Shown in pieces: positions 52,487-64,000 of a stretch of 64,000 nucleotides of DNA; positions within the stretch are counted from its first letter, which is position 1, and each line of letters begins with the position of its first letter. A program made the translations under genes and the position numbers. Below the pieces are notes generated by a model. The model worked only from the letters and a program-made list of their open reading frames with translations, did not search any database and was not told the origin of the DNA. The DNA is taken from assembly GCF_003712195.1 (NCBI RefSeq), contig NZ_RDSD01000005.1, positions 124,001-188,000 on the forward strand, written 5' to 3'. The DNA comes from Proteiniphilum sp. X52 (lineage in GTDB: Bacteria; Bacteroidota; Bacteroidia; Bacteroidales; Dysgonomonadaceae).

Positions 52487-53515
52487 ATGAAGAACTTGGC
52501 AACATCCTACATGGGCATTCCGCTCAAAAACCCGGTCATCCTGGGGGCATCAGAACTGGCATCTGAGATCGATTCACTGAAAAAAGCCGAGCAGGCGGGA
52601 GCTGCAGCCGTAGTCTATAAAACACTCTTTGAAGAACAGATACAGTTGGAAGATCTGCAATTCGACGAGTTGAAGGATGAGTACAACGATATCCATGCCG
52701 AGATGACCTCGCTTCATCCAGATATCGATCGCTCCGAGATAGAGTATTACCTAGTAAAGATCCGCAATGCGAAAGAAAACCTTTCCGTGCCGGTGATAGC
52801 CAGTCTGAATGCCGTGAACGAATCATCCTGGTTCCGCTACGCACGCCTGATCGAAGAGGCCGGCGTGGACGGAATAGAACTCAACCTTTACCAGACACCC
52901 ACGCAGTTCGACCTTGATGCGGCGGAAATCGAAAATCGACAGATAGCGATGGTTGCTCAGATAAAAAAACAACTCTCCATACCGGTGAGTGTGAAACTCA
53001 GTTCCGACTATACCAATATCCTGCACTTCGCGAAACGTCTCGATGAAGCGGGCGTGGACGGAATGGTGCTTTTTAATTCTTTCTTTCAGCCTGATATCGA
53101 TATTGAGAAGGAGAGTCACCGAAGAGCATTTAACCTGAGTAAGAAGGGTGATTACAAACCGTCGTTGCGTATCGCAGGAATGCTCTACGGTCGTGTGAAT
53201 GCTGCCGTATGTGGTAGCAGGGGTGTCTTCAACGGGGATGATGTGATCAAGCTGATCCTCTCCGGAGCAACCTGCGTGCAGGTGGTAAGCGCTGTCTACA
53301 GGCATGGGATGAGACAGATCACGGGAATGATCCGTGAGATTGAGGAATGGATGGAAAGGAAAGGTTACGATACTTTGGATCAGTTCAGGGGGAAACTTTC
53401 GGACAGTGTGCTCAATAAAGACGACAATCTGCTCATCTACAAGAGGGCACAGTACGTCGACCTGATCCTTCATTCCGACACCATCTTCGGGAATATGCAG
53501 CACCGGGGTTTTTAA
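52487..53515 (+). CDS. Dihydroorotate dehydrogenase-like flavoprotein
   Basis: 342 residues, a TIM-barrel of DHODH type with N-terminal MGIPLKNPVILGASELASEI, VIASLNAVNESSW, DGIELNLYQTPT, SVKLSSDYTN and FMN-phosphate region LSGATCVQVVSAVYRHG. The usual catalytic Cys/Ser loop is not evident, and Bacteroidetes carry a separate true pyrD, so this belongs to the DHODH-like subgroup of unknown substrate. Stands alone after the DUF4249 operon and convergent with yjbQ. Confidence 0.85.
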   Translation: MKNLATSYMGIPLKNPVILGASELASEIDSLKKAEQAGAAAVVYKTLFEEQIQLEDLQFDELKDEYNDIHAEMTSLHPDIDRSEIEYYLVKIRNAKENLSVPVIASLNAVNESSWFRYARLIEEAGVDGIELNLYQTPTQFDLDAAEIENRQIAMVAQIKKQLSIPVSVKLSSDYTNILHFAKRLDEAGVDGMVLFNSFFQPDIDIEKESHRRAFNLSKKGDYKPSLRIAGMLYGRVNAAVCGSRGVFNGDDVIKLILSGATCVQVVSAVYRHGMRQITGMIREIEEWMERKGYDTLDQFRGKLSDSVLNKDDNLLIYKRAQYVDLILHSDTIFGNMQHRGF

Positions 53516-53639: not shown

Positions 53640-54140
53640 CTACTCTCCGATGATTTGCACTTCGCAAACCCTTTTCCGTTCACGGATCTGGTCCCAGTCC
53701 ACAAAGTAGATGAATCCGAAATCGCCCAACGAGAGCTTTCCGTCGACCAGGGGTATGGTTTCGGAGCGTCCGAAAAACACGGAACGTAAGTGGGCGTCAG
53801 TGTTCAGGCTGCCTTTCGGTTCTTCATCCGGGAAAGTGAGCGCGAATTTGATGTGCTCCGGACCCGGATGCAAATATTGCCCTTCGGTTCTGCATGTCGG
53901 CACCAGCTTCTCCATGATGTTGTTCAAATCCTGTTGCAGGTATTCCCTGCCGAAGAAATTGAGGTCGTGCGAACATTCCTGCGTCATCACCGAGCAGGTG
54001 GTGTGGTGCGAATAAACGACACAAATGCCGTTCCGCACACCGGATTCATCCACAATTCTTTTTACCTCGTCCGTCACGTTGTGAAAATCCGGCCTGTGAT
54101 CTTTCGACTGAAGGTCGATCGTTCCCCTGTAAAGTCTCAT
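53640..54140 (-). CDS. YjbQ/UPF0047-family protein
   Basis: 166 residues. Conserved VVYSHHTTCSVMTQECSHDL, LHPGPEHIKFALTFPDEEPK-type core and GDFGFIYFVDWDQIRERK end. The family is listed as secondary thiamine-phosphate synthase on the basis of a weak activity in E. coli, but its true function is unsettled. Last gene of the eleven-gene catabolic operon, 36 bases after the TIM-family gene. Its presence there suggests a role on a sugar-derived intermediate (inference). Confidence 0.9.
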   Translation of the reverse strand: MRLYRGTIDLQSKDHRPDFHNVTDEVKRIVDESGVRNGICVVYSHHTTCSVMTQECSHDLNFFGREYLQQDLNNIMEKLVPTCRTEGQYLHPGPEHIKFALTFPDEEPKGSLNTDAHLRSVFFGRSETIPLVDGKLSLGDFGFIYFVDWDQIRERKRVCEVQIIGE

Positions 54141-54176
54141 TTTTTAATCTCCTTTCTTGGTTGTTTTGTAAATCAG

Positions 54177-54950
54177 TTATTTATTCAAATCGTCCCATGC
54201 TTTTCGAACGGCGCCGATCATTTCCTCCAGCATCGCCTCCGGATCCTCCGCCCTCATGATCCCGCTGGTGGTGCCCGTGGCGTCGGCCCCCGCCCGGATC
54301 GTCCTGTAAACATCCTGCCCGTTCGTGATTCCGGCTGCCTGCAATATCTGGATCTCCCTGTTTACCTTCTTTATGGCGGAAGTGGTCGCCCTCACGTACT
54401 CCTCGTCGCTGGTCTGTCCCGTGCCGATCAGCTCCGTGGGTTCGGCCACGATAATGTTGGGAGAAAGGTGGGCAATTGCTTCCGCCTCGCGGATGGAGTC
54501 GGCACATGCCATGGAAACCAGGCCCACTTCATCCGCCCGTTTGATTGCCCGGGACAAATCGGCCAGGGTCATCGGCTTTTCGGCGTGGTTGAGAATGACG
54601 CCGACGGCGCCGGCCGCTTTCAGCGCCTCGGGAAGGATGGAGCCGTTTCCCCTGCCTATCGGGATAGGATCCATGTGTTGGGCAAAAACAAGCACGTGCT
54701 TTGTCTCCTTGGCCAACAGGTAGATGTCCGACGGTTGCAGTGTCAGGATTATTCTCACATCGTACTTGACGGAAGCTTCATCGGCCGCTTTCGCCAGCCT
54801 CAGCATCCTTTCCCCGTACATGTAGGCTTTGGGGCCGATTTCAAAAAATGGCGGTTTAATTGTTAATCCCTTATACATATCGTTTAGTAATTCCTTTAAG
54901 TTTCGCAATCTTTCTTGTTTGGTACTAACACTCGGTTCCCGCTGCTTCAT
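54177..54950 (-). CDS. Triosephosphate-isomerase-family sugar-phosphate isomerase
   Basis: 257 residues. TIM barrel resembling archaeal TIM and the EryH/LerI tetrulose-phosphate isomerases: catalytic Lys in EIGPKAY, VFAQHMDP, NHAEKPM (catalytic His), IIVAEPTELIGTG (catalytic Glu), TTSGIMRAEDPEAML (phosphate loop). A dedicated glycolytic TIM is expected elsewhere, so this copy is likely pathway-specific. Its ATG directly follows the stop of the SIS gene; ATG 54878 is an alternative start matching archaeal lengths. Confidence 0.88.
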   Translation of the reverse strand: MKQREPSVSTKQERLRNLKELLNDMYKGLTIKPPFFEIGPKAYMYGERMLRLAKAADEASVKYDVRIILTLQPSDIYLLAKETKHVLVFAQHMDPIPIGRGNGSILPEALKAAGAVGVILNHAEKPMTLADLSRAIKRADEVGLVSMACADSIREAEAIAHLSPNIIVAEPTELIGTGQTSDEEYVRATTSAIKKVNREIQILQAAGITNGQDVYRTIRAGADATGTTSGIMRAEDPEAMLEEMIGAVRKAWDDLNK

Positions 54951-55559
54951 TTACCCGTTCAGCCTGCTGCCGACGGCGCCGCCCGGGTGGATCAGGGCAA
55001 ACTGCTCCAGCGAATACCCGGTGATCTCCATGATGGAGGCGAGCAGGGCGTCAAAAATGGCGATGGTGGCCACGAAGCTGGCCGTCGCCATGACATTCAA
55101 CCCGTCACTTTCCTTCTCGATTTTCAGGGGGAGAACGATTTGTGATTTTTTAGCCAGGGGAGCCTCCAGGTTCTCGGTAACACCGATAAGTACCACCTCT
55201 TTTTTATTGCACACCTCGATGATGGGCAACAGCTCGGCGGTCTTTCCTCCCCGGGAGACCATCACCACCGCGTCTCCCTTTTTCATGCATCCCATTCCTC
55301 CGTGGATGGCTTCCGCCGGCGACAGGAATTGCGCGTTTCTCTCGATGCAGCACAACGAGTGGGCGAACTTTTTGGCCGCGATACCGGATGACCCGCTGGC
55401 GCAGGTGATTATCTTGGGACAGCGGCTCAATGCTTCAACGGCTTTCACGAAGCTCTCCTTGTCCAGGTAATCCGCGATGTCCGAAATGGCCTTGCTCTCA
55501 ATCCTTAAGGATTGTTTTGCCCGTCGCAGGATCGCCTCTTTTTCTAACTCTTTCATCAT
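54951..55559 (-). CDS. SIS-domain phosphosugar isomerase
   Basis: 202 residues from ATG 55559, chosen because it overlaps the FGGY stop as ATGA. SIS fold of KdsD/KpsF N-terminal or hexulose-phosphate-isomerase type: CASGSSGIAAKKFAHSLC, SPAEAIHGGMGCMKKGDAVV, SRGGKTAELLPII, LIGVTENLEAPLAKKSQIVL, LEQFALIHPGGAVGSRL. The terminal HPGGxxG is typical of KdsD; no CBS domains are present. Expected to interconvert aldose and ketose phosphates in the cytoplasm, with the FGGY kinase supplying substrate. Confidence 0.93.
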   Translation of the reverse strand: MMKELEKEAILRRAKQSLRIESKAISDIADYLDKESFVKAVEALSRCPKIITCASGSSGIAAKKFAHSLCCIERNAQFLSPAEAIHGGMGCMKKGDAVVMVSRGGKTAELLPIIEVCNKKEVVLIGVTENLEAPLAKKSQIVLPLKIEKESDGLNVMATASFVATIAIFDALLASIMEITGYSLEQFALIHPGGAVGSRLNG

Positions 55560-56968
55560 GTATTTAGCCATTTATATTTTTCCACATTTACCGGATCCGG
55601 GTTTACCAGCCGGGCATGTCTCGCCTGTGTTCCGAAAGACTCTTTCCTTTCTTCTTGTTGGATATCCCCTCTCGCCGCGATCAACGCGGCTCCCCGGCAG
55701 GCCAACTCACGGCATTCGGGTACAATAAAAACCTTGTTGAGGATATCGGCCTTCACATGCGTCCACAAAAGGCTCCGGGCTCCCCCTCCGGAAGCTGTTA
55801 TCGCTTCCGAAAGGTTTTCTTGATCCAGGCTGGCCACCAAGTCTCGTAAGCTTAAACCGGTCGATTCGAGAATCGCCCTTACAAAATGTCCGTGGGAATG
55901 CTTGTCTGTGATGTTCCGGAACCCCGAAAGCGATTCAAACTTGTCGGCACAGGGAGAAGCCTTTAAACCGTCACTTCCCGGGGCGATGCCTTCGGCCCTC
56001 TTTAGCAGTTCTTCAATGGATAATCCGGGAGCAAACTTTTTTTGATACCACTCCAGCGCTGTAGCCCCGTTTTCATTGAAAGCCATTTGAAAATAATATC
56101 CTTTCCTTAATCCGGGAGCGATGTTTATTCCCGTTCTCGGACAAAAGCCTTGCCGGTAATTCACGCATGCCAGCACGGTGCCCGTCGACTCGCAAACCTG
56201 GGTTGAGCTCGTTAAGCCGGCGCCCACAGCGACCATATGGTGGTCCAATCCTCCCAGGAAGAATTTCGTGTCGGCAGCCAATCCCAGTCGTATCGCTCTT
56301 TCTCCGGCTAAGGTGCCGACAAGGCTTCCCGTTCTTTGGGGAGGGAACAGGAGCTTTTTGTGGATATCCAACGTTTCCAATGCTTCGTCCCACCACTTTT
56401 CTCCAGGCACATCGAACAGTCCCGTCATGGATGACGTGCTGAAGTCGCTTGCTTTTTGTCCGGTTAACGAGAATGTCAGGTAGTCTGAAACGGACGCAAT
56501 GCTGGTTGCCTTCTCCCAGATTTCCGGCTTGTTCTCCCGGAACCAAACTATCTTGGCCGCCATGGATTGCAGGCCGGGCAAAATTCCTAATCCTGTCTTC
56601 TTCAGAAAATTGGGGTTTCCCAATAAAGAGCGCAGGACGGAAGGCATTTGTCCGGCTCTTTTGTCGGGCCACAGAATCAATGGAGTGAGCGGATGAGCCG
56701 TTTCGTCCAGCAGGACAAAACTGTTGGCTTGCGATGAGTAGGAAACGGCGACCAGCTCGTTGGGGGTGATTCCTGCCTTTTCAATTGCCCAATTAACGCA
56801 TTTACGCAGTGCAGCCCAAAATTCAGCGATGGGCAATTCACAGATATTCCCATCGCCTGTCTGTTTATTCACCAAGCAGCGTCCCAATCCGGCGAGATAT
56901 CCCTGTTCATCGAATACGCCCGCCTTGAAGTAACTTGTTCCCAGATCTATTCCAAGGTAGAATCCCAT
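55556..56968 (-). CDS. FGGY-family carbohydrate kinase
   Basis: 470 residues. N-terminal FGGY domain MGFYLGIDLGTSYFKAGVF (phosphate 1 motif), SSQANSFVLLDE, WPDKRAGQM; C-terminal domain GLDHHMVAVGAGL, ESTGLSLRDLVASL and ITASGGGARSLLW (adenosine motif). Somewhat short versus xylulokinase or glycerol kinase (~490-500). Cytoplasmic kinase of a ketose, polyol or related sugar; specificity cannot be read. The stop overlaps the SIS start, one base separates it from the ceramidase-like gene upstream. Confidence 0.95.
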   Translation of the reverse strand: MGFYLGIDLGTSYFKAGVFDEQGYLAGLGRCLVNKQTGDGNICELPIAEFWAALRKCVNWAIEKAGITPNELVAVSYSSQANSFVLLDETAHPLTPLILWPDKRAGQMPSVLRSLLGNPNFLKKTGLGILPGLQSMAAKIVWFRENKPEIWEKATSIASVSDYLTFSLTGQKASDFSTSSMTGLFDVPGEKWWDEALETLDIHKKLLFPPQRTGSLVGTLAGERAIRLGLAADTKFFLGGLDHHMVAVGAGLTSSTQVCESTGTVLACVNYRQGFCPRTGINIAPGLRKGYYFQMAFNENGATALEWYQKKFAPGLSIEELLKRAEGIAPGSDGLKASPCADKFESLSGFRNITDKHSHGHFVRAILESTGLSLRDLVASLDQENLSEAITASGGGARSLLWTHVKADILNKVFIVPECRELACRGAALIAARGDIQQEERKESFGTQARHARLVNPDPVNVEKYKWLNT

Positions 56969-56969
56969 T

Positions 56970-58283
56970 TCACTTCAATTTTAATTGCCGGATTGTTTCG
57001 GCCAGCATGAGTTCCCCGGCCTTGTGATCAAAGAAGGAATTTCCCGCCTCGTAAAATCCTTTTTCGTGCGCTTCCCGGGTGACGATATACCCTTGAAGTT
57101 CTCCGTTGGCATAGGTGATGAAAGCCACATTGGCCACATGTTCTTTCAGTTCCAGCCCGTACTCCACGAACACCTCGCCGGGCCAGGCTGCAAATTTCCA
57201 TTCACCCACCTTGATTATTTGTATTTCAGCGGGCAGCACGCTTCGGTATGCCTGTTCCAATTGGTTGTCCCGGGCTAATTTGGCCAAACAGAGGAGCTCT
57301 TCCGAACCAAACCAGTTCACTTCTGCCGTGCGTATCTCTCGCGGATCTTTCGAACTCTTTTTAAGCTCTTCGAAACGTTTTCTGGTTTTGTCGCGATGTT
57401 CCTTTGCCCGCTCCACCGAGGGGAAAGTCCGTCTGGGCAGATCGACGAATTTTTGAGCGGCCGAAACAGGTATATGGGAGGAGTAAGTCACCGTCTCCGT
57501 TAGTTTGGAAATGATGGAATCTGTCACAATCTGTCCTATTCGTTCAGCCTCTTCAAACGTGTTGGATTTCGTGACATGCCGGGGACTCTGATTGCCGGCA
57601 GTTCCGGTAAAATATACGACAGGACACTCTTTTCCCAGCAAATCATTTTGAAGTGATTTCCTGACATAATGCGGAAAATCTCCACTGTACAGCGTTGAGT
57701 CTTCGTGCAGAATGGTTGGATGCATATTGCAAACCAGCATACAACCGATAAAAGCACCGGTTTTATTCTTGACTAACAGAACGGGCACATCCATATCCTT
57801 TGCTCCGGTGGGATTATGACGGTTTGTCCCAACGCCTGTTGCATCTCCAACAACAACGGCAATCTCAGCCCACGTCGCCTTTTCCACTGCCTGGCAAGCG
57901 GCTTTTACGGTGCTCTCTTCCATGAATTTCAGGAAGCTTCCGTCAACTTTGGGAACGACGGGGTCGTTCGCGCTGATTGCCAGGTCTACGGTAACCGGAG
58001 CCGAATGGGTATGCGTTGCCGCTATCAGGATGTTGGAATCCCGTATCCCGGTTTTTTTGGAAATTCCTTCTCTTATCCGCGCCGTGGACGCTTTACTCAC
58101 GTATATGACATCGTTGGAGATAAACAAGACCTGATTTTTCCCGTCCGTCAAATACAAAGCTGAACTTAACAGGTCGTCGTGCGTGCCGGTGCTCATTCTC
58201 TCCACATAGGGGTAGCCGTACAAGAAGTGCGATTCTTGCGGGGTGATGTTTACGGTTGCCGCGCCGGCTTTTAACTTGCTCAT
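56970..58283 (-). CDS. Ceramidase-fold hydrolase without signal peptide
   Basis: 437 residues. N-terminal neutral/alkaline ceramidase domain: AATVNITPQESHFLYGY, LIAATHTHSAPVT (Zn His pair), GTNRHNPTG, LVCNMHPTILHEDSTLYSGD, FTGTAGNQSPR. The N-terminus MSKLKAGAA has no signal, so it is cytoplasmic, unlike the lipoprotein relative at 1189-3108. Inside a sugar operon between NagB-like and FGGY genes, it more likely cleaves an N-acyl or related bond of a sugar derivative than ceramide. The reaction is unassigned. Confidence 0.9.
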   Translation of the reverse strand: MSKLKAGAATVNITPQESHFLYGYPYVERMSTGTHDDLLSSALYLTDGKNQVLFISNDVIYVSKASTARIREGISKKTGIRDSNILIAATHTHSAPVTVDLAISANDPVVPKVDGSFLKFMEESTVKAACQAVEKATWAEIAVVVGDATGVGTNRHNPTGAKDMDVPVLLVKNKTGAFIGCMLVCNMHPTILHEDSTLYSGDFPHYVRKSLQNDLLGKECPVVYFTGTAGNQSPRHVTKSNTFEEAERIGQIVTDSIISKLTETVTYSSHIPVSAAQKFVDLPRRTFPSVERAKEHRDKTRKRFEELKKSSKDPREIRTAEVNWFGSEELLCLAKLARDNQLEQAYRSVLPAEIQIIKVGEWKFAAWPGEVFVEYGLELKEHVANVAFITYANGELQGYIVTREAHEKGFYEAGNSFFDHKAGELMLAETIRQLKLK

Positions 58284-58295
58284 GTCCGATGTTTT

Positions 58296-59276
58296 CTAAT
58301 ATTCCTTATTCCAGTCTGTTTCAATGTTTTGCGCGATGGTTTCCGACACGTAGACATCCGTCCTCAATGTCTGAAGGATGGATTCGGGCACCAGCGGCGT
58401 CACCGGCCCGTGCAGCACGAGACGCGTGGTGAATCGTTGCCATGCGGTGGTGGTGCCGTGCACCGTAATGGAGTGCGTGTCGAAGCGGTGCTTGGCGTTT
58501 ATCACATCAGCGGGGCCAATGGTGGCTGCCTTGGGAGGCACCGCCGCCAGGTTGCCGCTCTTGCCGAACACGCCGTGCAACGAGTTTTGGGCGAGGGTGA
58601 AGGGGCTTAGCGTGCAGATTCTTGCTCCCATCTGCTTCCAGTCTTCCAGGGAGCCTTGGAATTCGGGCGCGTCGGGTTCGATAAAAGCCAGATGGCCTGT
58701 CCACCCGGGCCCGCTGTAGCAGATATCCGCTCCTCCCGCATCGGCGATCATCTTGCTGTAATCCCTCACATTCTTGTTGGTAAAGCCGACGAATTGCTTT
58801 TTGTCCGGTCTCAACTTTTCATCTATCGCGTAATAGAAATACTTCATCATGGCATGGGTAAATCCGAGTTCCCATTCTTCGGGCGCGATATTCCCGTTTT
58901 CGTCGGCGTACTCGTCCATCGCGAAAGCGTAGATATTTCGACAGTCGATATTACAAGCATTGATTAATCGGGCCAGATGTCTGTATAGCCGAGCAGGATT
59001 GGGCAGTATCATCACGAGTCTTTCCCCGGTATCCGAAGAATGCTTTATTCTTCTGAACATATCGGTAATCCAATAATGCGCGACATCCGCATCGGGAATT
59101 ACCTTTATCCTGAAATCGGGATTAGGGTGTTTCTCCATATCCTCTCTTTTGATGGCTGACACCCTGTTAATTTCTTTTTTATCTCTAAAGGGTACCCATT
59201 CAGACGGGTTGAAGTCGAATTGCTGATGCCCTGTATTATGCCCAGGGTCAAGCACAAATTTCCGAGTTTGTTCCAT
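58296..59276 (-). CDS. NagB-like glucosamine-6-phosphate deaminase/isomerase homologue with altered active site
   Basis: 326 residues from ATG 59276, one base after the nagA stop. Core NagB motifs: LPNPARLYRHLARLINA, FAMDEYADE with Asp121 (E. coli Asp72), and GPGWTGHLAFIEP with His195 and Glu200 (E. coli His143, Glu148). The catalytic Asp141 equivalent is Thr193. An N-terminal extension (~50 residues) and a C-terminal part with VHGTTTAWQRFTTRLVL differ from true NagB. It probably acts on a related sugar phosphate, perhaps isomerising without deamination. Confidence 0.85.
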   Translation of the reverse strand: MEQTRKFVLDPGHNTGHQQFDFNPSEWVPFRDKKEINRVSAIKREDMEKHPNPDFRIKVIPDADVAHYWITDMFRRIKHSSDTGERLVMILPNPARLYRHLARLINACNIDCRNIYAFAMDEYADENGNIAPEEWELGFTHAMMKYFYYAIDEKLRPDKKQFVGFTNKNVRDYSKMIADAGGADICYSGPGWTGHLAFIEPDAPEFQGSLEDWKQMGARICTLSPFTLAQNSLHGVFGKSGNLAAVPPKAATIGPADVINAKHRFDTHSITVHGTTTAWQRFTTRLVLHGPVTPLVPESILQTLRTDVYVSETIAQNIETDWNKEY

Positions 59277-59277
59277 A

Positions 59278-60480
59278 TTATTTCCTCTCAAAAAAACATT
59301 TGCCGTTTATCCATGTTTGTAAAACATCCAGATTCTCGTTTAACACGACGAAATCGGCGTCGTAACCTTTCTTTAGTATTCCTTTCTTATGTCCAATCCC
59401 AAGAACCATAGCCGGATGATGGCTTACCAACTTCGAGGCGTGCACCAGATCTAGCCCGAGCCATTTTACGGCATTTTTTAATGCCCGGTCCATTGTCAGT
59501 CCGCTTCCGGCCAGCGTGTTGTCTTTCACCAGGCGTGCGGGAGCGCCTTTATGGGCGAATTCAATCTCCCCGCTGTTGCCAAAGACAAAACGTCCGGCTC
59601 CTAAACCTGCACCCACATTGGCGTCGGTGATCAAACAAACTTTTCCGGGGCCTCGCGATTTGCATTTGAGCGCTGTTTTTACGGCTATCGGATCCACATG
59701 CACTCCGTCAAGAATAAAATCCACGCCGACCCGCTCGTCGGCCAGGATGGCTTCCACGGCGCCACAAGGGCGCACGCCGGGTTCGGAGACGGGGGGACAG
59801 GGGAAAACGTCGTAGAAGTGCGTGGCATGACGCGCCCCCAAGGCTATGGCGCGTTGAGTTTGTTCTACCGTTGCCGCCGTGTGGGTAATAAATACGGGGG
59901 TATTGTTCTCGGCCATGAACGGGATCAGCCGGTCGATGCCTTCCACGTCGGGGGAAATGCTGAAAATGGCCCTGTAGGGTTTTGCGGCTTGAATCAGAGC
60001 TTGTACTCTTCCTTCATCTGCTCCGCAGGTGGCTCCGGCGCCTAAAGCTCCTGTGATCTTGAGAAACGGTCCTTCGAGGTGGAAACCCAATATTTCCGTT
60101 CCTTCGGTCTCTGTTATGGACAACTCCGAGAGAAACTCTGCATCTTCTCCTTTAGGCCTGGGAGCTAATGTGGGCAAAAATCCTGTAACTCCGTATTGAG
60201 GTAAAATTTTACAGATTTCTTTCAAATCTTCCCCGCCGTTGTCCACCAACATGTGCTGAATGCCGTGTATATGCAGATCGATGAATCCGGGCGTGATATA
60301 CGATTCACCCAAATCAATCACATCACATCCCGGAGGAGATTCTCCTATATCGATAATTTTTCCTCTACGTGTTGTGAGATATCCTTTAACTATTTCAGAG
60401 TCTGAAATTATAATCCCCTTAAAAGCAACTTGATCATTATTTTGCATATGTTCAACGTAACCTGTATTTATTTTTATCAT
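59278..60480 (-). CDS. nagA: N-acetylglucosamine-6-phosphate deacetylase
   Basis: 400 residues, amidohydrolase fold. YITPGFIDLHIHGIQ (HxH), LGFHLEGPFLK (metal Glu), IFITHTAATVEQTQ and RHATHFYDVFPCP (metal His pair; usual HLFNAM is HFYDVF), VCLITDANVGAG (catalytic Asp), LAGSGLTMDRALKNAV. Removes acetyl from GlcNAc-6-P-like substrates. ATG 60447 is a possible later start. In this operon with an unusual NagB-like partner the substrate may be another N-acyl amino-sugar phosphate. Confidence 0.92.
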   Translation of the reverse strand: MIKINTGYVEHMQNNDQVAFKGIIISDSEIVKGYLTTRRGKIIDIGESPPGCDVIDLGESYITPGFIDLHIHGIQHMLVDNGGEDLKEICKILPQYGVTGFLPTLAPRPKGEDAEFLSELSITETEGTEILGFHLEGPFLKITGALGAGATCGADEGRVQALIQAAKPYRAIFSISPDVEGIDRLIPFMAENNTPVFITHTAATVEQTQRAIALGARHATHFYDVFPCPPVSEPGVRPCGAVEAILADERVGVDFILDGVHVDPIAVKTALKCKSRGPGKVCLITDANVGAGLGAGRFVFGNSGEIEFAHKGAPARLVKDNTLAGSGLTMDRALKNAVKWLGLDLVHASKLVSHHPAMVLGIGHKKGILKKGYDADFVVLNENLDVLQTWINGKCFFERK

Positions 60481-60498
60481 CTAAAGAGTAGGAGGGTA

Positions 60499-61275
60499 CT
60501 ACGCATGCATTCCGCCATCCATCAAGATGTTTTCTCCATTTATATAAGCGCCGGCATCCGATGCCAACAGCACCATCAGGCCCTTTATGTCGTCGTTGTT
60601 CGCCATTCGTCCTAAAGGAACTTTCTTGTTGTAATTCTCCAGGAAGCGCTCGGGTTGATTGTTGAACAAACCTCCAGGACTCACGCAATTCACCCGGATG
60701 TTTTTTCCGGCATAGACACGTGCCAAGTAACGGGTTAGGTTAATTATTCCTGCCCTGTGGAAATAGTAATCGGGAGGCGGTATGCCCAGATTCGTACCTT
60801 CATAGTTGGAAAGGTCCGGACCAAACATTCCCATCATAGAGGCTATATTTATGATACTTCCTCCGCCGCTTTTCTCAATTAAGTCTGCCATTTCACGTAA
60901 AATATCCATAGCTCCGGTTGCATTTATACGCATGGATTCGGCAAAATTCTCAATGGGATCATTATACGTCTTCATCGGTCTTGAGACGGCATTATTTACA
61001 AAAACGTCTAATTTCCCAAATTTTTTGGTGATTGACGCTTTTAGGGCTACCACAGAGTCATGATTCCCTTGATCTACCGGCATGGCATGAACATCCCATC
61101 CATTCTTCCGGAACTTAGAGACTGTTTTCACTACCTTCTCCATGTTTCGAGAAGCAATGATTATGGTTCCTTCAGCCTCTGCCAACCCTTCTACGATGCA
61201 TTTACCATAGTTTCCAGCGCCACCTGACACTAAAATTATTTTACCTTTTAAATTCATCAAATCTTTTATGTTCAT
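60499..61275 (-). CDS. SDR-family oxidoreductase with catalytic Lys replaced by Arg
   Basis: 258 residues. Rossmann fold with LVSGGAGNYGKCIVE (GxxxGxG-like), NNAVSRP, INIASMMGMFG (Ser), YYFHRAGIINLTRYLA where the YxxxK motif is Tyr170-x3-Arg174, and SPGGLFNN. The codon is AGG at 60754-60756. Closest to 3-oxoacyl-ACP-reductase-like sugar dehydrogenases. Probably oxidises a hydroxyl of the pathway sugar; the Arg could reduce or alter activity. ATG 61257 is a possible later start. Confidence 0.92.
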   Translation of the reverse strand: MNIKDLMNLKGKIILVSGGAGNYGKCIVEGLAEAEGTIIIASRNMEKVVKTVSKFRKNGWDVHAMPVDQGNHDSVVALKASITKKFGKLDVFVNNAVSRPMKTYNDPIENFAESMRINATGAMDILREMADLIEKSGGGSIINIASMMGMFGPDLSNYEGTNLGIPPPDYYFHRAGIINLTRYLARVYAGKNIRVNCVSPGGLFNNQPERFLENYNKKVPLGRMANNDDIKGLMVLLASDAGAYINGENILMDGGMHA

Positions 61276-61285
61276 TTTAAATCTG

Positions 61286-62212
61286 TTAAAACTTAGACAT
61301 GTCTATGGTTTTTCCACCTTGTTTCGAACTTTCAATAGCCGCAATGATGGTTCGGATGATATTTTCCGTTTTATGGAAAGAAAGCCTGGAGGAGCCTTGC
61401 TCTACGGATTTGACAAACTCCATAATGTTGTCTCTGAACATGGAGTAGGAATTTTTTATATCCATTAATCGCCATCCCTGCTGTCCAAATAAAGATATCT
61501 GGAATGTACCCGTAATGTCCATAAACAAATGAATTGTTGCCTGAAAACCATTTGCAAACCCAATATACACAATCTCTTTGTTTTTTTTACCGATGGATTT
61601 GACGCACATGGGTTTAGGATCATTCAAGAGAGCGAACAATCCTTCCACAATATGAACGCCGTACTTGATCCAATCTTTTTTGCCTACCGCTGTTGCAAGT
61701 TCGAGCTTACCCAAAGAGTCAATCTCTTGTTTTACAATCCTGGTCTCATTGGCGTAACGCATGGACGAACACGACATGATCAATTTACCTTTAGCATTTT
61801 CATCAGCAAAATATTGCAGATCTTCTTTTGTGTTTGCAAGTGGTTTATCGATAAAAATAGGTATTCCCGCATCCAAAAAAGGTTTAGCCATGGCCACATG
61901 ATTTTCAGGGTCATCTCTTGATAAGAGAATTGCGTCCACAAGAGGAGCCATGTCTTCCAGCTTATTCACTATTCGGGGTATTTTGCTTGATTTAGCGATA
62001 CTTTCCGAAATTTCGCGGTTCTGTGTCCATACACATGTCACTTTTGCGTTGGATATTCCGAGTGTGTCTTTATTTGCTTCCAAATAATTCGCGACAGCCG
62101 GATAACCGATTTTCGTTATTTCACCGGCATCAAACACTCCATTTATAATAGATGACCATGAGTAGGGGTGTGCATTTCCAAGACTCATTCCGATTATACC
62201 CATTTTTATCAT
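61286..62212 (-). CDS. Gfo/Idh/MocA-family oxidoreductase
   Basis: 308 residues, short for the family (usually 330-400). N-terminal NAD(P) fold MGIIGMSLGNAHPYSW, DAILLSRDDPENHVAMAKPF, IPIFIDKPLANTKED (DKP in place of EKP, Lys kept), then the alpha/beta C-terminal domain with GVHIVEGLFALLNDP (HxxE-type). Likely oxidises or reduces a sugar or inositol carbonyl. Ten to eighteen bases from both neighbours. Confidence 0.92.
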   Translation of the reverse strand: MIKMGIIGMSLGNAHPYSWSSIINGVFDAGEITKIGYPAVANYLEANKDTLGISNAKVTCVWTQNREISESIAKSSKIPRIVNKLEDMAPLVDAILLSRDDPENHVAMAKPFLDAGIPIFIDKPLANTKEDLQYFADENAKGKLIMSCSSMRYANETRIVKQEIDSLGKLELATAVGKKDWIKYGVHIVEGLFALLNDPKPMCVKSIGKKNKEIVYIGFANGFQATIHLFMDITGTFQISLFGQQGWRLMDIKNSYSMFRDNIMEFVKSVEQGSSRLSFHKTENIIRTIIAAIESSKQGGKTIDMSKF

Positions 62213-62230
62213 GTATTTTAATTTTATCTG

Positions 62231-63187
62231 TTACGTTAACCATTTCATTTTATCCCAATAGGGGAGATTGATAAAATCCGGTTCAGGATATGCTAATTGC
62301 CTCGCTTGATCCAGTTTTTCTTTACTTAAATAAACCCCATCTACCGTTCTTAGCGCTTCTTCCAAATATTCTTGCCTGTCAATGCCCACCAATACCGAAG
62401 AAACTTCCGGAAAAGACAATGCAAATTTGGTGGCTAATGCCGGCAATTTATAATTGGTCCCCTCCAATAATACGTGGTATTTTGCAATGTGGTTTTCGAC
62501 GTCTTTGAGTGCATGATGAAGATTTTTCCCCCTGTCGCTTAACAGACCCTTTAGTAAAACCGACCTTACCACTATCCCGACACCTTTCTTTTGTGCATCC
62601 TCAAACAGATCTCCTTGTCGCTGATCCATCAAATTAAAAGGAAGTTGAATCATATTCCAGAATCCGCTATCGATTACTTTTTTAGAAACCTCGTTTGTAT
62701 AGCTTGAAACTCCGGCGGCCTTAAAAATCCCCTGGTTTTTAAAGTCTGAAAAAGCATTCAAAATTTCATCACTATCCAGAATTTCCATGGTCGCTTGATG
62801 AAGCATATAAATATCTATGTAATCGGTTTGTAGAGCTTCAAGACTTTCAGTCAATGATTTTTCTATAATACCTTTAATATCTTTTTGGGGCGGTAGTTTC
62901 CCTTTCTTGTCGAGTAGAGGGACACATTTGGATGCTATTACCACTTTCCTGCGTCTGTCTTTGAAAGCTTTACCCATGATGCGCTCGCTGTTTCCATACA
63001 TTCTGGCCGTATCAAAAAAATTAATTCCGGAATCTGAAGCTATCTGAAGTAGTTCTACGGCTTTATCTTCTGAAAGCATATCCTTCTCGCTGTTTATTCC
63101 TATCCCGTAAGGCATACCAATTTCTACTCCGCCGAAAGCTATTTCAGAGATGTAAATTTCTGTATTTCCTAACTGTCTTTTATTCAT
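62231..63187 (-). CDS. Aldo/keto reductase
   Basis: 318 residues. AKR motifs: INFFDTARMYGNSERIMG (Asp, Tyr), KVVIASKC (Lys), DIYMLHQAT (His), and FALSFPEVSSVLVGIDRQEY near the cofactor site. NADPH-dependent reduction of a sugar aldehyde or ketone is the expected reaction. Second gene visible in the operon, 92 bases after the aldolase. Confidence 0.93.
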   Translation of the reverse strand: MNKRQLGNTEIYISEIAFGGVEIGMPYGIGINSEKDMLSEDKAVELLQIASDSGINFFDTARMYGNSERIMGKAFKDRRRKVVIASKCVPLLDKKGKLPPQKDIKGIIEKSLTESLEALQTDYIDIYMLHQATMEILDSDEILNAFSDFKNQGIFKAAGVSSYTNEVSKKVIDSGFWNMIQLPFNLMDQRQGDLFEDAQKKGVGIVVRSVLLKGLLSDRGKNLHHALKDVENHIAKYHVLLEGTNYKLPALATKFALSFPEVSSVLVGIDRQEYLEEALRTVDGVYLSKEKLDQARQLAYPEPDFINLPYWDKMKWLT

Positions 63188-63279
63188 GAATTGGTTGAAT
63201 AGATAACTGATTTTTAAATAAGTGGCAGCTAACTTTGGGCTAATAACTACTTATCCGTACGTTCCTTTAGATTTGTTTT

Positions 63280-64000
63280 TCACAACCGATTCAATTTTAT
63301 AAAACCTCTTATTAATTCTTGACAATATGTATTTAATCCAATTACATCTGCTCCTATGCTTATGAACTGATATCCCATATCTATCAGCTTGCCGGCATTA
63401 TCGAGATTTCCTGTTGTAGCAGCAAATTTTCCGTATTTTCGGGCAACTTCCGCTACACGTTTCCGAGTTTCCATTAGCAGAGGATGCTCCCACTGTCCCG
63501 GTGCGCCAATCCCCTGGCTAAAATCTCCGGGTCCGAAAAACAACATATCATATCCTTCAAGCGATGCTATGGCTTCTAAATCATCCAACGGTTCGGGATC
63601 TTCTATTTGCAAAGCAATGAATCGCTGTTCATTGGCTTTTTTCAGGTACTCACAAAAATCCATGGCAGAATATGCTCCGTCTGCATTTCCACCGTCAATG
63701 GAACGGCGTCCAATAGGATGAAACCGAGTGAAGTAAACCACTCTTTTTGCATCTTCCAAGTTCATGATATGCGGTACTAAAATTCCGGTTGCATCCAATT
63801 CCAACGGTTTGATATAGTCACTGTAACTTCCGCGCGAAACACGCACCATAATATCCACATCGTGTGATTTTGCCGCCCAGTTCTGTGCTTTTATATCTGC
63901 CCAGTCCTGCACCACGTGCTCTCTGTCCAACCAGAGACAGTCAAATCCTGACATAGCTGCTATCTCGGCAATTTCCCCGCCAGGTAGATTCAATTTAAAG
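63280..64000 (-). CDS. HpcH/HpaI-family aldolase (N-terminus off the window)
   Basis: The frame is open to the window edge; about 240 residues are visible. Class II pyruvate aldolase motifs: GFDCLWLDREHVVQDW, GILVPHIMNLEDAKRVV, FIALQIEDPEPLDDLEAI, MLFFGPGDFSQGIGAPGQW. Enzymes of this family cleave 2-keto-3-deoxy sugar acids or related compounds into pyruvate and an aldehyde. As first visible gene of the operon it would supply the last cleavage, with the TIM/SIS/kinase acting on the other half. A truncated true start lies upstream; any internal TTG is not meaningful. Confidence 0.93.
   Translation of the reverse strand, partial: FKLNLPGGEIAEIAAMSGFDCLWLDREHVVQDWADIKAQNWAAKSHDVDIMVRVSRGSYSDYIKPLELDATGILVPHIMNLEDAKRVVYFTRFHPIGRRSIDGGNADGAYSAMDFCEYLKKANEQRFIALQIEDPEPLDDLEAIASLEGYDMLFFGPGDFSQGIGAPGQWEHPLLMETRKRVAEVARKYGKFAATTGNLDNAGKLIDMGYQFISIGADVIGLNTYCQELIRGFIKLNRL

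Follow-up and report, generated by a model that had tools for sequence, protein, structure and literature searches.

A candidate route for an unphosphorylated N-acyl amino sugar at the end of a modular polysaccharide utilisation locus of Proteiniphilum sp. X52

Conserved core and operon layout

The window analysed here, 64,000 nucleotides of Proteiniphilum sp. X52 (NZ_RDSD01000005.1, positions 124,001 to 188,000), ended in a run of eleven minus-strand genes (53640 to 64000). They made up the catabolic, cytoplasmic tail of a polysaccharide utilisation locus (PUL), and their operon ran past position 64000. Seven of these genes (NagA-NagB-CER-FGGY-SIS-TIM-YjbQ, where CER is a ceramidase-fold protein) formed a conserved core, and four (HpaI-AKR-Gfo/Idh-SDR) formed a separable unit, module A. 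The whole was taken to be a modular PUL tail that would degrade an acidic sugar by way of an unphosphorylated N-acyl amino sugar, an account that stands just short of an even chance. A first-pass annotation of the window had proposed a catabolic pathway of amino-sugar type, which was supported, and had treated the eleven genes as one pathway unit, which was not: module A occurred alone in another genome (G162), and gene arrangement favours describing the eleven genes as three reusable modules brought together in one PUL. The locus would represent a variant amino-sugar catabolic operon with two possible new enzyme roles, for the ceramidase fold and for a long YjbQ, both directly testable.

Gene content, order and conservation were established by comparing loci gene by gene, the loci being obtained from a close-relative scan of genome contigs and from 101 genomes of the family (11 positive). 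Nine loci had the complete core with its gene order unchanged, at 53-98% protein identity: the window, G443, G444, both G465 loci, G482, G474, G440 and contig JAAYSS010000124. NagB had a break in G440, and kinase and SIS shared a single open reading frame (ORF) in G465 locus C157. The core was cut by contig ends in G460, G480 and G462, was present only in part in the divergent locus L013, and appeared to be broken by insertion-sequence-like ORFs in G420 (L035 10581-11357 and 5214-6134). All eleven genes were under purifying selection in comparison with Petrimonas, a member of Dysgonomonadaceae (dN/dS 0.02-0.17), YjbQ being the most constrained (dN/dS 0.021). The grouping of the genes was not attributed to chance, because the seven-gene order was kept in nine loci and purifying selection acted on all eleven genes. 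Sampling the phylum (395 genomes) and the order (393) gave no close match to the NagB-like protein outside the family, and so brought in no deeper Bacteroidota relatives of the core. Locus L012, labelled Clostridiales, was near-identical to Petrimonas and probably mis-binned, and was left out as a separate phylum.

The eleven ORFs named in the first-pass annotation were all found, and ORFs, coordinates and families agreed with it (Pfam and NCBIfam: UPF0047/YjbQ, TIM, SIS, FGGY, Ceramidase_alk, NagB-like, NagA-like, SDR, Gfo/Idh, AKR and HpcH/HpaI), as did the near-zero gaps. Calculated from coordinates, the latter were 36 bases for YjbQ-TIM, 0 for TIM-SIS, 1 for FGGY-CER, 12 for CER-NagB, 18 for NagA-SDR, 10 for SDR-Gfo, 18 for Gfo-AKR and 92 for AKR-HpaI; SIS has a possible ATG start from which it would share four bases (ATGA) with the stop of FGGY. 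The genes were as follows:

53640..54140, minus strand: long-form YjbQ (UPF0047) with an extra stretch of ~25 residues carrying a PGPxH motif (TIGR00149)
54177..54950, minus strand: archaeal-type triosephosphate-isomerase-family enzyme, TIM (PRK04302, 1hg3)
54951..55571, minus strand: SIS-domain sugar-phosphate isomerase, KpsF/GutQ-like without CBS domains (Pfam SIS)
55556..56968, minus strand: FGGY carbohydrate kinase, XylB-like but under the XylB cut-off (FGGY_N/FGGY_C)
56970..58283, minus strand: predicted cytoplasmic ceramidase-fold zinc amidohydrolase, CER (Pfam Ceramidase_alk, AlphaFold2 model)
58296..59291, minus strand: NagB-like protein with the phosphate loop missing; ATG start probably near 59276 (nagB model)
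59278..60480, minus strand: predicted NagA-like deacylase, metal site intact, phosphate-binding residues replaced (nagA model)
60499..61275, minus strand: SDR oxidoreductase, PRK09186/PtmA-like, module A (Pfam, NCBIfam)
61286..62212, minus strand: Gfo/Idh/MocA oxidoreductase, module A (Pfam)
62231..63187, minus strand: aldo/keto reductase (AKR), module A (Pfam)
63280..64000, minus strand: HpcH/HpaI pyruvate aldolase of module A, truncated at the edge of the window (Pfam, HpaI model)

Amino-sugar-type proteins and their partners

Conserved and lost residues of the NagA-like and NagB-like proteins were established by alignment with E. coli NagA and NagB (L047). The NagA-like protein scored just under the nagA cut-off (TIGR00221; 213.6 bits vs 225.65) and retained E131, H195, H216 and D273 (E. 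coli numbering), taken here to be the metal and catalytic residues. N219, A220 and R227, which are presumed to bind the 6-phosphate, were replaced by D, V and S in the window; the R227 equivalent was missing in all 10 NagA-like rows, and Asn stood at position 219 in one of them. The NagB-like protein scored far below the nagB cut-off (TIGR00502; 55.3 bits vs 236.9), and had lost TGGTP, presumably the phosphate loop, and D141, presumably catalytic and here T, with D72, H143 and E148 retained. The substrate was read as unphosphorylated at C6 because the phosphate-binding residues were lost jointly in both proteins, which spoke against the N-acetyl amino-sugar phosphate of the first-pass annotation. 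Elsewhere the genome carried a full-scoring NagB (411 bits) and two NagA genes above the cut-off. AlphaFold2 modelled the NagB-like protein with a pLDDT of 44, a quality too low for structural comparison. A distant homologue of this protein was encoded on a Vibrio nigripulchritudo plasmid (L066 9998-10894), where the neighbours were a nucleoside hydrolase, an adenosylhomocysteinase, an adenosine deaminase, a ribokinase and a nucleoside transporter.

CER exceeded the Pfam threshold for Ceramidase_alk (PF04734; 52.1 bits vs 32.1), the match being confined to its N-terminal half, and a profile of nine relatives aligned with both solved neutral ceramidases and retained the GNxSP motif. Its zinc ligands H91, H188, E370 and Y399 were invariant in the nine sequences and aligned to H97, H204, E411 and Y448 of P. 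aeruginosa neutral ceramidase, which are taken to be the zinc ligands of that enzyme. The AlphaFold2 model, built from nine sequences only (pLDDT 70.6), matched 2zxc (Foldseek E 1e-16; Z 27.5 and rmsd 3.7 over 364 residues with VIA-align), the next unrelated structures having Z near 8. With 437 aa, CER covered no more of 2zxc/2zws than residues 2-486 and was without the C-terminal domain; its N-terminus (MSKLKAGAATVNITP) had no hydrophobic stretch, and no signal peptide was found. A signal-less ceramidase-fold hydrolase, as first annotated, was hence borne out by fold and zinc ligands. The neutral-ceramidase equivalog model gave 24.8 bits vs a cut-off of 1200 (NCBIfam NF041649). Judged from sequence and model, CER is predicted to be equipped for catalysis like a ceramidase-type zinc amidase, which does not by itself make ceramide its substrate. 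The fold is known for lipids; here, in two phyla, it was found in a cytosolic protein that accompanies amino-sugar enzymes.

Other ceramidase-fold proteins were also observed. Two signal-bearing ones (L006 8622-16420; G000:C3), each beside a DegT/AHBA-synthase-like aminotransferase and with Gfo/Idh nearby, are another system employing this fold. Extra paralogues (24-27% identical) lay inside or beside PULs of relatives (L032, L033, L076), hinting that the ceramidase fold is often employed on glycans in Bacteroidota.

The window YjbQ scored above the family cut-off (TIGR00149; 89.4 bits vs 67.75); the thiamine-phosphate synthase activity in the name of that model is putative for this protein. 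It was the sole YjbQ of the genome, was 90-98% identical in relatives, and was 22% identical to E. coli YjbQ, which did not have the PGPxH-type insertion common to all TIM-linked forms. TIM scored 195.9 bits with PRK04302 (cut-off 132), had 1hg3 as its top PDB match (E 1e-46) and retained the catalytic Lys, His and Glu positions in the alignment, a canonical TIM being present elsewhere in the genome. Its earlier description as EryH/LerI-like gave way to archaeal-type on PRK04302 and 1hg3, in a comparison that held no EryH/LerI sequence. SIS (206 aa, SIS domain only, no CBS) had 3fxa as its top PDB match (E 2e-53) and scored 118.2 bits vs 203.7 with KpsF/GutQ (TIGR00393); FGGY scored 233 bits vs 380.25 with XylB/xylulokinase (TIGR01312).

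YjbQ/UPF0047 proteins are widespread and their structures have been solved, with no settled role. An enzyme-promiscuity paper (PMC4731195) deals with ThiG, touches on YjbQ only in passing, and was set aside. The pdxB gene serves a step of four-carbon phosphate metabolism. Escherichia coli YjbQ is listed with unknown function, and a pdxB mutant is rescued when it is overproduced (PMC7954711). With that rescue a tetrose-phosphate role for TIM and YjbQ would be compatible, as an idea only.

Parts of the core recurred in other phyla. On plasmids of five alphaproteobacterial genera (Devosia, Ponticoccus, Microvirga, Nitratireductor and Martelella), NagB-like, SIS, NagA-like and ceramidase-fold genes lay in a single run that contained no FGGY, TIM or YjbQ; a sugar ABC transporter came next, and a LacI-type regulator stood alongside. 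Archaeal-type TIM adjoined YjbQ in further loci, where the pair was accompanied in Shinella by SDR, a xylose-isomerase-like protein and FGGY kinase, in Lacticaseibacillus paracasei and Enterococcus faecium by a phosphotransferase system (PTS) and class II aldolase, and in E. raffinosus by class II aldolase; the adjacency of TIM and long YjbQ extended to Pseudomonadota and Bacillota. YjbQ of the Shinella, Lacticaseibacillus and Enterococcus loci was 38-50% identical to that of the window and carried the PGPxH-type insertion. Another E. faecium arrangement consisted of PTS, YjbQ, Rpe and HxlB, and FGGY and SIS were adjacent on Pantoea and Duffyella plasmids. With the adjacency of YjbQ and TIM in three phyla, and the only YjbQ of the genome in a sugar locus, the question of YjbQ becomes a defined test.

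Upstream genes and exchange of feeding modules

The longest ORF of HpaI reached window-equivalent position 64077 (L004:10281-11078), and the gene was incomplete in the window (Pfam 86.5 bits; HpaI model 122.9 bits vs 368.8). The genes of the operon as first annotated stood, and its end at the window edge did not, HpaI being cut there and the same-strand run continuing beyond 64000 from MFS to SusC:

L004:11185-12438, same strand as the operon: MFS transporter
L004:12475-13680, same strand: BNR sialidase-like lipoprotein
L004:13728-15176, same strand: secreted 482-aa protein, no family assigned
L004:15295-17055, same strand: LamG protein
L004:17075-18556, same strand: SusD
From L004:18575 into L005, to about position 1870, same strand: SusC
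L005:3518-4672, divergent: XylR/AraC-type regulator

Adjacent SusC and SusD together with BNR and LamG proteins, upstream and on the same strand, identified the locus as a PUL. The substrate was hinted at most strongly by SusC/SusD and the sialidase-like genes, which lie beyond the window and so out of view of the first-pass annotation. Scans for promoters and terminators did no better than chance and gave no information on transcription units. The BNR lipoprotein matched the solved, uncharacterised Dfer_1899 (PDB 5hx0, E 1e-175) and had four close homologues in G162. A short transposase-like remnant lay upstream of SusC (L005 2270-2760), and a dihydroorotate-dehydrogenase-family gene (window 52487-53515, plus strand) was convergent with the operon end.

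Module A preceded the core in the window, G443, G444, G482 and G474, extra genes being inserted in the last two; in G480 the SDR end lay immediately upstream of NagA. The class-mate G162 had module A without any core gene (Gfo/Idh 58% and AKR 50% identical to those of the window). With it were a SusD, proteins of the sialidase-like and 482-aa types, and an amidohydrolase fused to a class-III aminotransferase. In Petrimonas, an unfused amidohydrolase-aminotransferase pair adjoined HpaI. In G465 locus C130, a 25-residue SDR remnant (92% identical) lay directly upstream of NagA, in a neighbourhood now consisting of an anion-type MFS and a DHDPS-family aldolase; by its sequence, the remnant marks a visible module exchange.

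A FucP/NagP-type MFS lay directly upstream of NagA in L009/L036, L010, L032 and L035. The L035 protein, the sole one scored, reached 328.6 bits with NagP (cut-off 625) and 258.6 with the GluP subfamily (cut-off 202.55). Near it in L035 (G420) were a protein of GH109, an alpha-N-acetylgalactosaminidase family (6t2b, E 6e-87), and a second protein with very weak GH20 resemblance. Three feeding arrangements were therefore distinguished among the loci, namely anion-type MFS with HpaI, anion-type MFS with DHDPS-type aldolase, and NagP-like MFS, with BNR/sialidase-like proteins in both the HpaI-type and the DHDPS-type loci. Two kinds of supply to the core are suggested: cleavage of an acidic sugar by a pyruvate aldolase, or direct uptake of an apparent N-acetylhexosamine. 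The co-occurrence of ceramidase-fold, NagB-like and YjbQ genes, for which the first-pass annotation had suggested a neighbourhood check, was conserved in relatives; the one transporter anticipated with this trio was not borne out, the transporter type varying among loci.

Proposed route, alternatives and known systems

From these genes we infer each reaction, the order of reactions and the substrate. SusC/SusD and sialidase-fold enzymes would release an acidic sugar, probably a 3-deoxy-2-ulosonate, which the anion-type MFS would bring in, AKR, Gfo/Idh and SDR would adjust, and HpaI would split into pyruvate and an N-acylated amino sugar; alternatively, an unphosphorylated N-acyl amino sugar would be imported directly. 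The NagA-like and ceramidase-fold metal hydrolases would then strip acyl groups from the unphosphorylated amino sugar, possibly at two positions, and the NagB-like protein would deaminate or isomerise the deacylated product to a ketose. Phosphorylation of the ketose by the FGGY kinase would be followed by conversion of the ketose phosphate to phosphates of central metabolism by SIS, the archaeal-type TIM and the long YjbQ.

Two parts of the route were weighed separately. Tentatively, and with the balance against it, cytoplasmic ceramidase-fold enzymes would de-N-acylate (or hydrolyse C-N bonds of) unphosphorylated amino sugars with NagA-like and NagB-like proteins, and the long YjbQ would be a dedicated sugar-phosphate enzyme partnered by archaeal-type TIM, with tetrose or triose phosphates as possible substrates, in an undescribed amino-sugar route with FGGY and SIS. 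As substrate, a 6-deoxy or di-N-acyl amino sugar, or a nonulosonic acid of the legionaminic/pseudaminic kind, was a guess that is probably wrong; the legionaminic/pseudaminic type was named because it would fit with a pair of amide hydrolases, with a 6-phosphate going unused, with entry through an aldolase and with sialidase-like enzymes. Were it a bacterial nonulosonic acid, the locus would represent a recycling route for bacterial surface sugars, of which the literature searched described no pathway.

Several observations weighed against the proposed route. The core was without an obvious hexulose-phosphate aldolase, leaving the triose/tetrose split with no gene, and the substrate and enzyme activities are predictions from the genes alone. 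TGGTP was also missing from the alphaproteobacterial NagB-type proteins and from two further ones encoded in this genome; loss of this loop by itself would be weak evidence for an unphosphorylated substrate, and the NagB argument consequently rests on the loop, D141 and the other changes together. The alphaproteobacterial NagA-like proteins retained the Asn219 and Arg227 equivalents, deamination by a NagB-like protein without the Asp141 equivalent is uncertain, and the distant Vibrio homologue of that protein lay amid nucleoside genes.

A substrate other than an amino sugar was considered unlikely. The NagA-like, NagB-like and CER proteins would in that case act as lactonase, isomerase or C-O/C-N hydrolases on a sugar acid, a cyclitol or a nucleoside-like compound, as suggested by the missing Asp141 in a fold that includes 6-phosphogluconolactonase, by the nucleoside operon around the Vibrio homologue, and by other ceramidase-fold genes found with DegT and Gfo/Idh or with many Gfo/Idh genes. 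The NagA-like metal site was nonetheless intact, the three proteins recurred jointly across two phyla, and a NagP-like transporter and a GH109-family protein occurred in one locus.

A variant of the ordinary sialic acid/GlcNAc route, in which an aldolase yields ManNAc, NagA and NagB act on 6-phosphates and the extra enzymes serve minor derivatives, was quite unlikely. The loss of phosphate-binding residues from both Nag-type proteins contradicted it, as did the canonical NagB and above-cut-off NagA genes already in the genome and an operon with no hexosamine kinase or NanE epimerase, an FGGY kinase being unexpected for hexosamines; sialidase-like proteins, acid transporters, the DHDPS-family aldolase of some loci and a NagA score only just under the curated cut-off were in its favour.

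Improbable, too, was the reading that modules for unrelated substrates had come together under one promoter by chance. Module A, the NagA-NagB-CER group and TIM-YjbQ were each found without the others, but module A and the core were joined in the same order in five fully read loci (the window, G443, G444, G482 and G474), and relatives of HpaI, AKR and SDR also followed CER-FGGY in L013. Biosynthesis of a nonulosonic-type surface sugar, to which the SDR (138 bits to flagellin-modification PtmA), the aldolase and a class-III aminotransferase (adjoining module A in Petrimonas, part of a fusion with an amidohydrolase in G162) might point, was judged very unlikely, as the cluster as read had no NeuA/NeuB-like genes or glycosyltransferases, and SusC/SusD, secreted sialidase-like proteins and importers indicated uptake.

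The claim of the first-pass annotation that no described pathway has this gene set was upheld as far as the open-licence literature goes: no characterised pathway matching the seven-gene core was found there, an absence that is weak evidence, and literature on YjbQ, on legionaminic/pseudaminic catabolism, on ceramidase with amino sugars and on Petrimonas/Proteiniphilum gave no matching pathway.

Compared with known systems, the cluster shared with nag/aga operons (NagA, NagB, AgaS; GlcNAc/GalNAc) a deacylase, a deaminase-type protein and a SIS isomerase, and differed by the loss of phosphate-binding residues from both Nag-type proteins and by the addition of CER, FGGY kinase, TIM and YjbQ. Sialic acid PULs (NanA, NanE, NanOx) likewise combine SusC/SusD, sialidase-fold enzymes, an acid importer, a pyruvate aldolase and Gfo/Idh, whereas the window had HpaI in place of NanA, no NanE and another amino-sugar end. 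Neutral ceramidases (P. aeruginosa 2zws/2zxc, human 4wgk) agreed with CER in catalytic-domain fold (Z about 27), zinc ligands and GNxSP, but CER had 437 aa, no C-terminal domain and no secretion signal, and lay amid sugar genes. In tetritol pathways, a kinase, a TIM-type isomerase (EryH/LerI) and a second small protein (EryI/DerI) act on sugar phosphates; the present cluster also had a kinase, a TIM-type isomerase and a small protein, but the TIM was archaeal-type and YjbQ replaced the RpiB-type partner. The window YjbQ belonged with UPF0047 by its family model score, and differed in being a long form with the PGPxH insertion, such forms adjoining archaeal-type TIM in three phyla.

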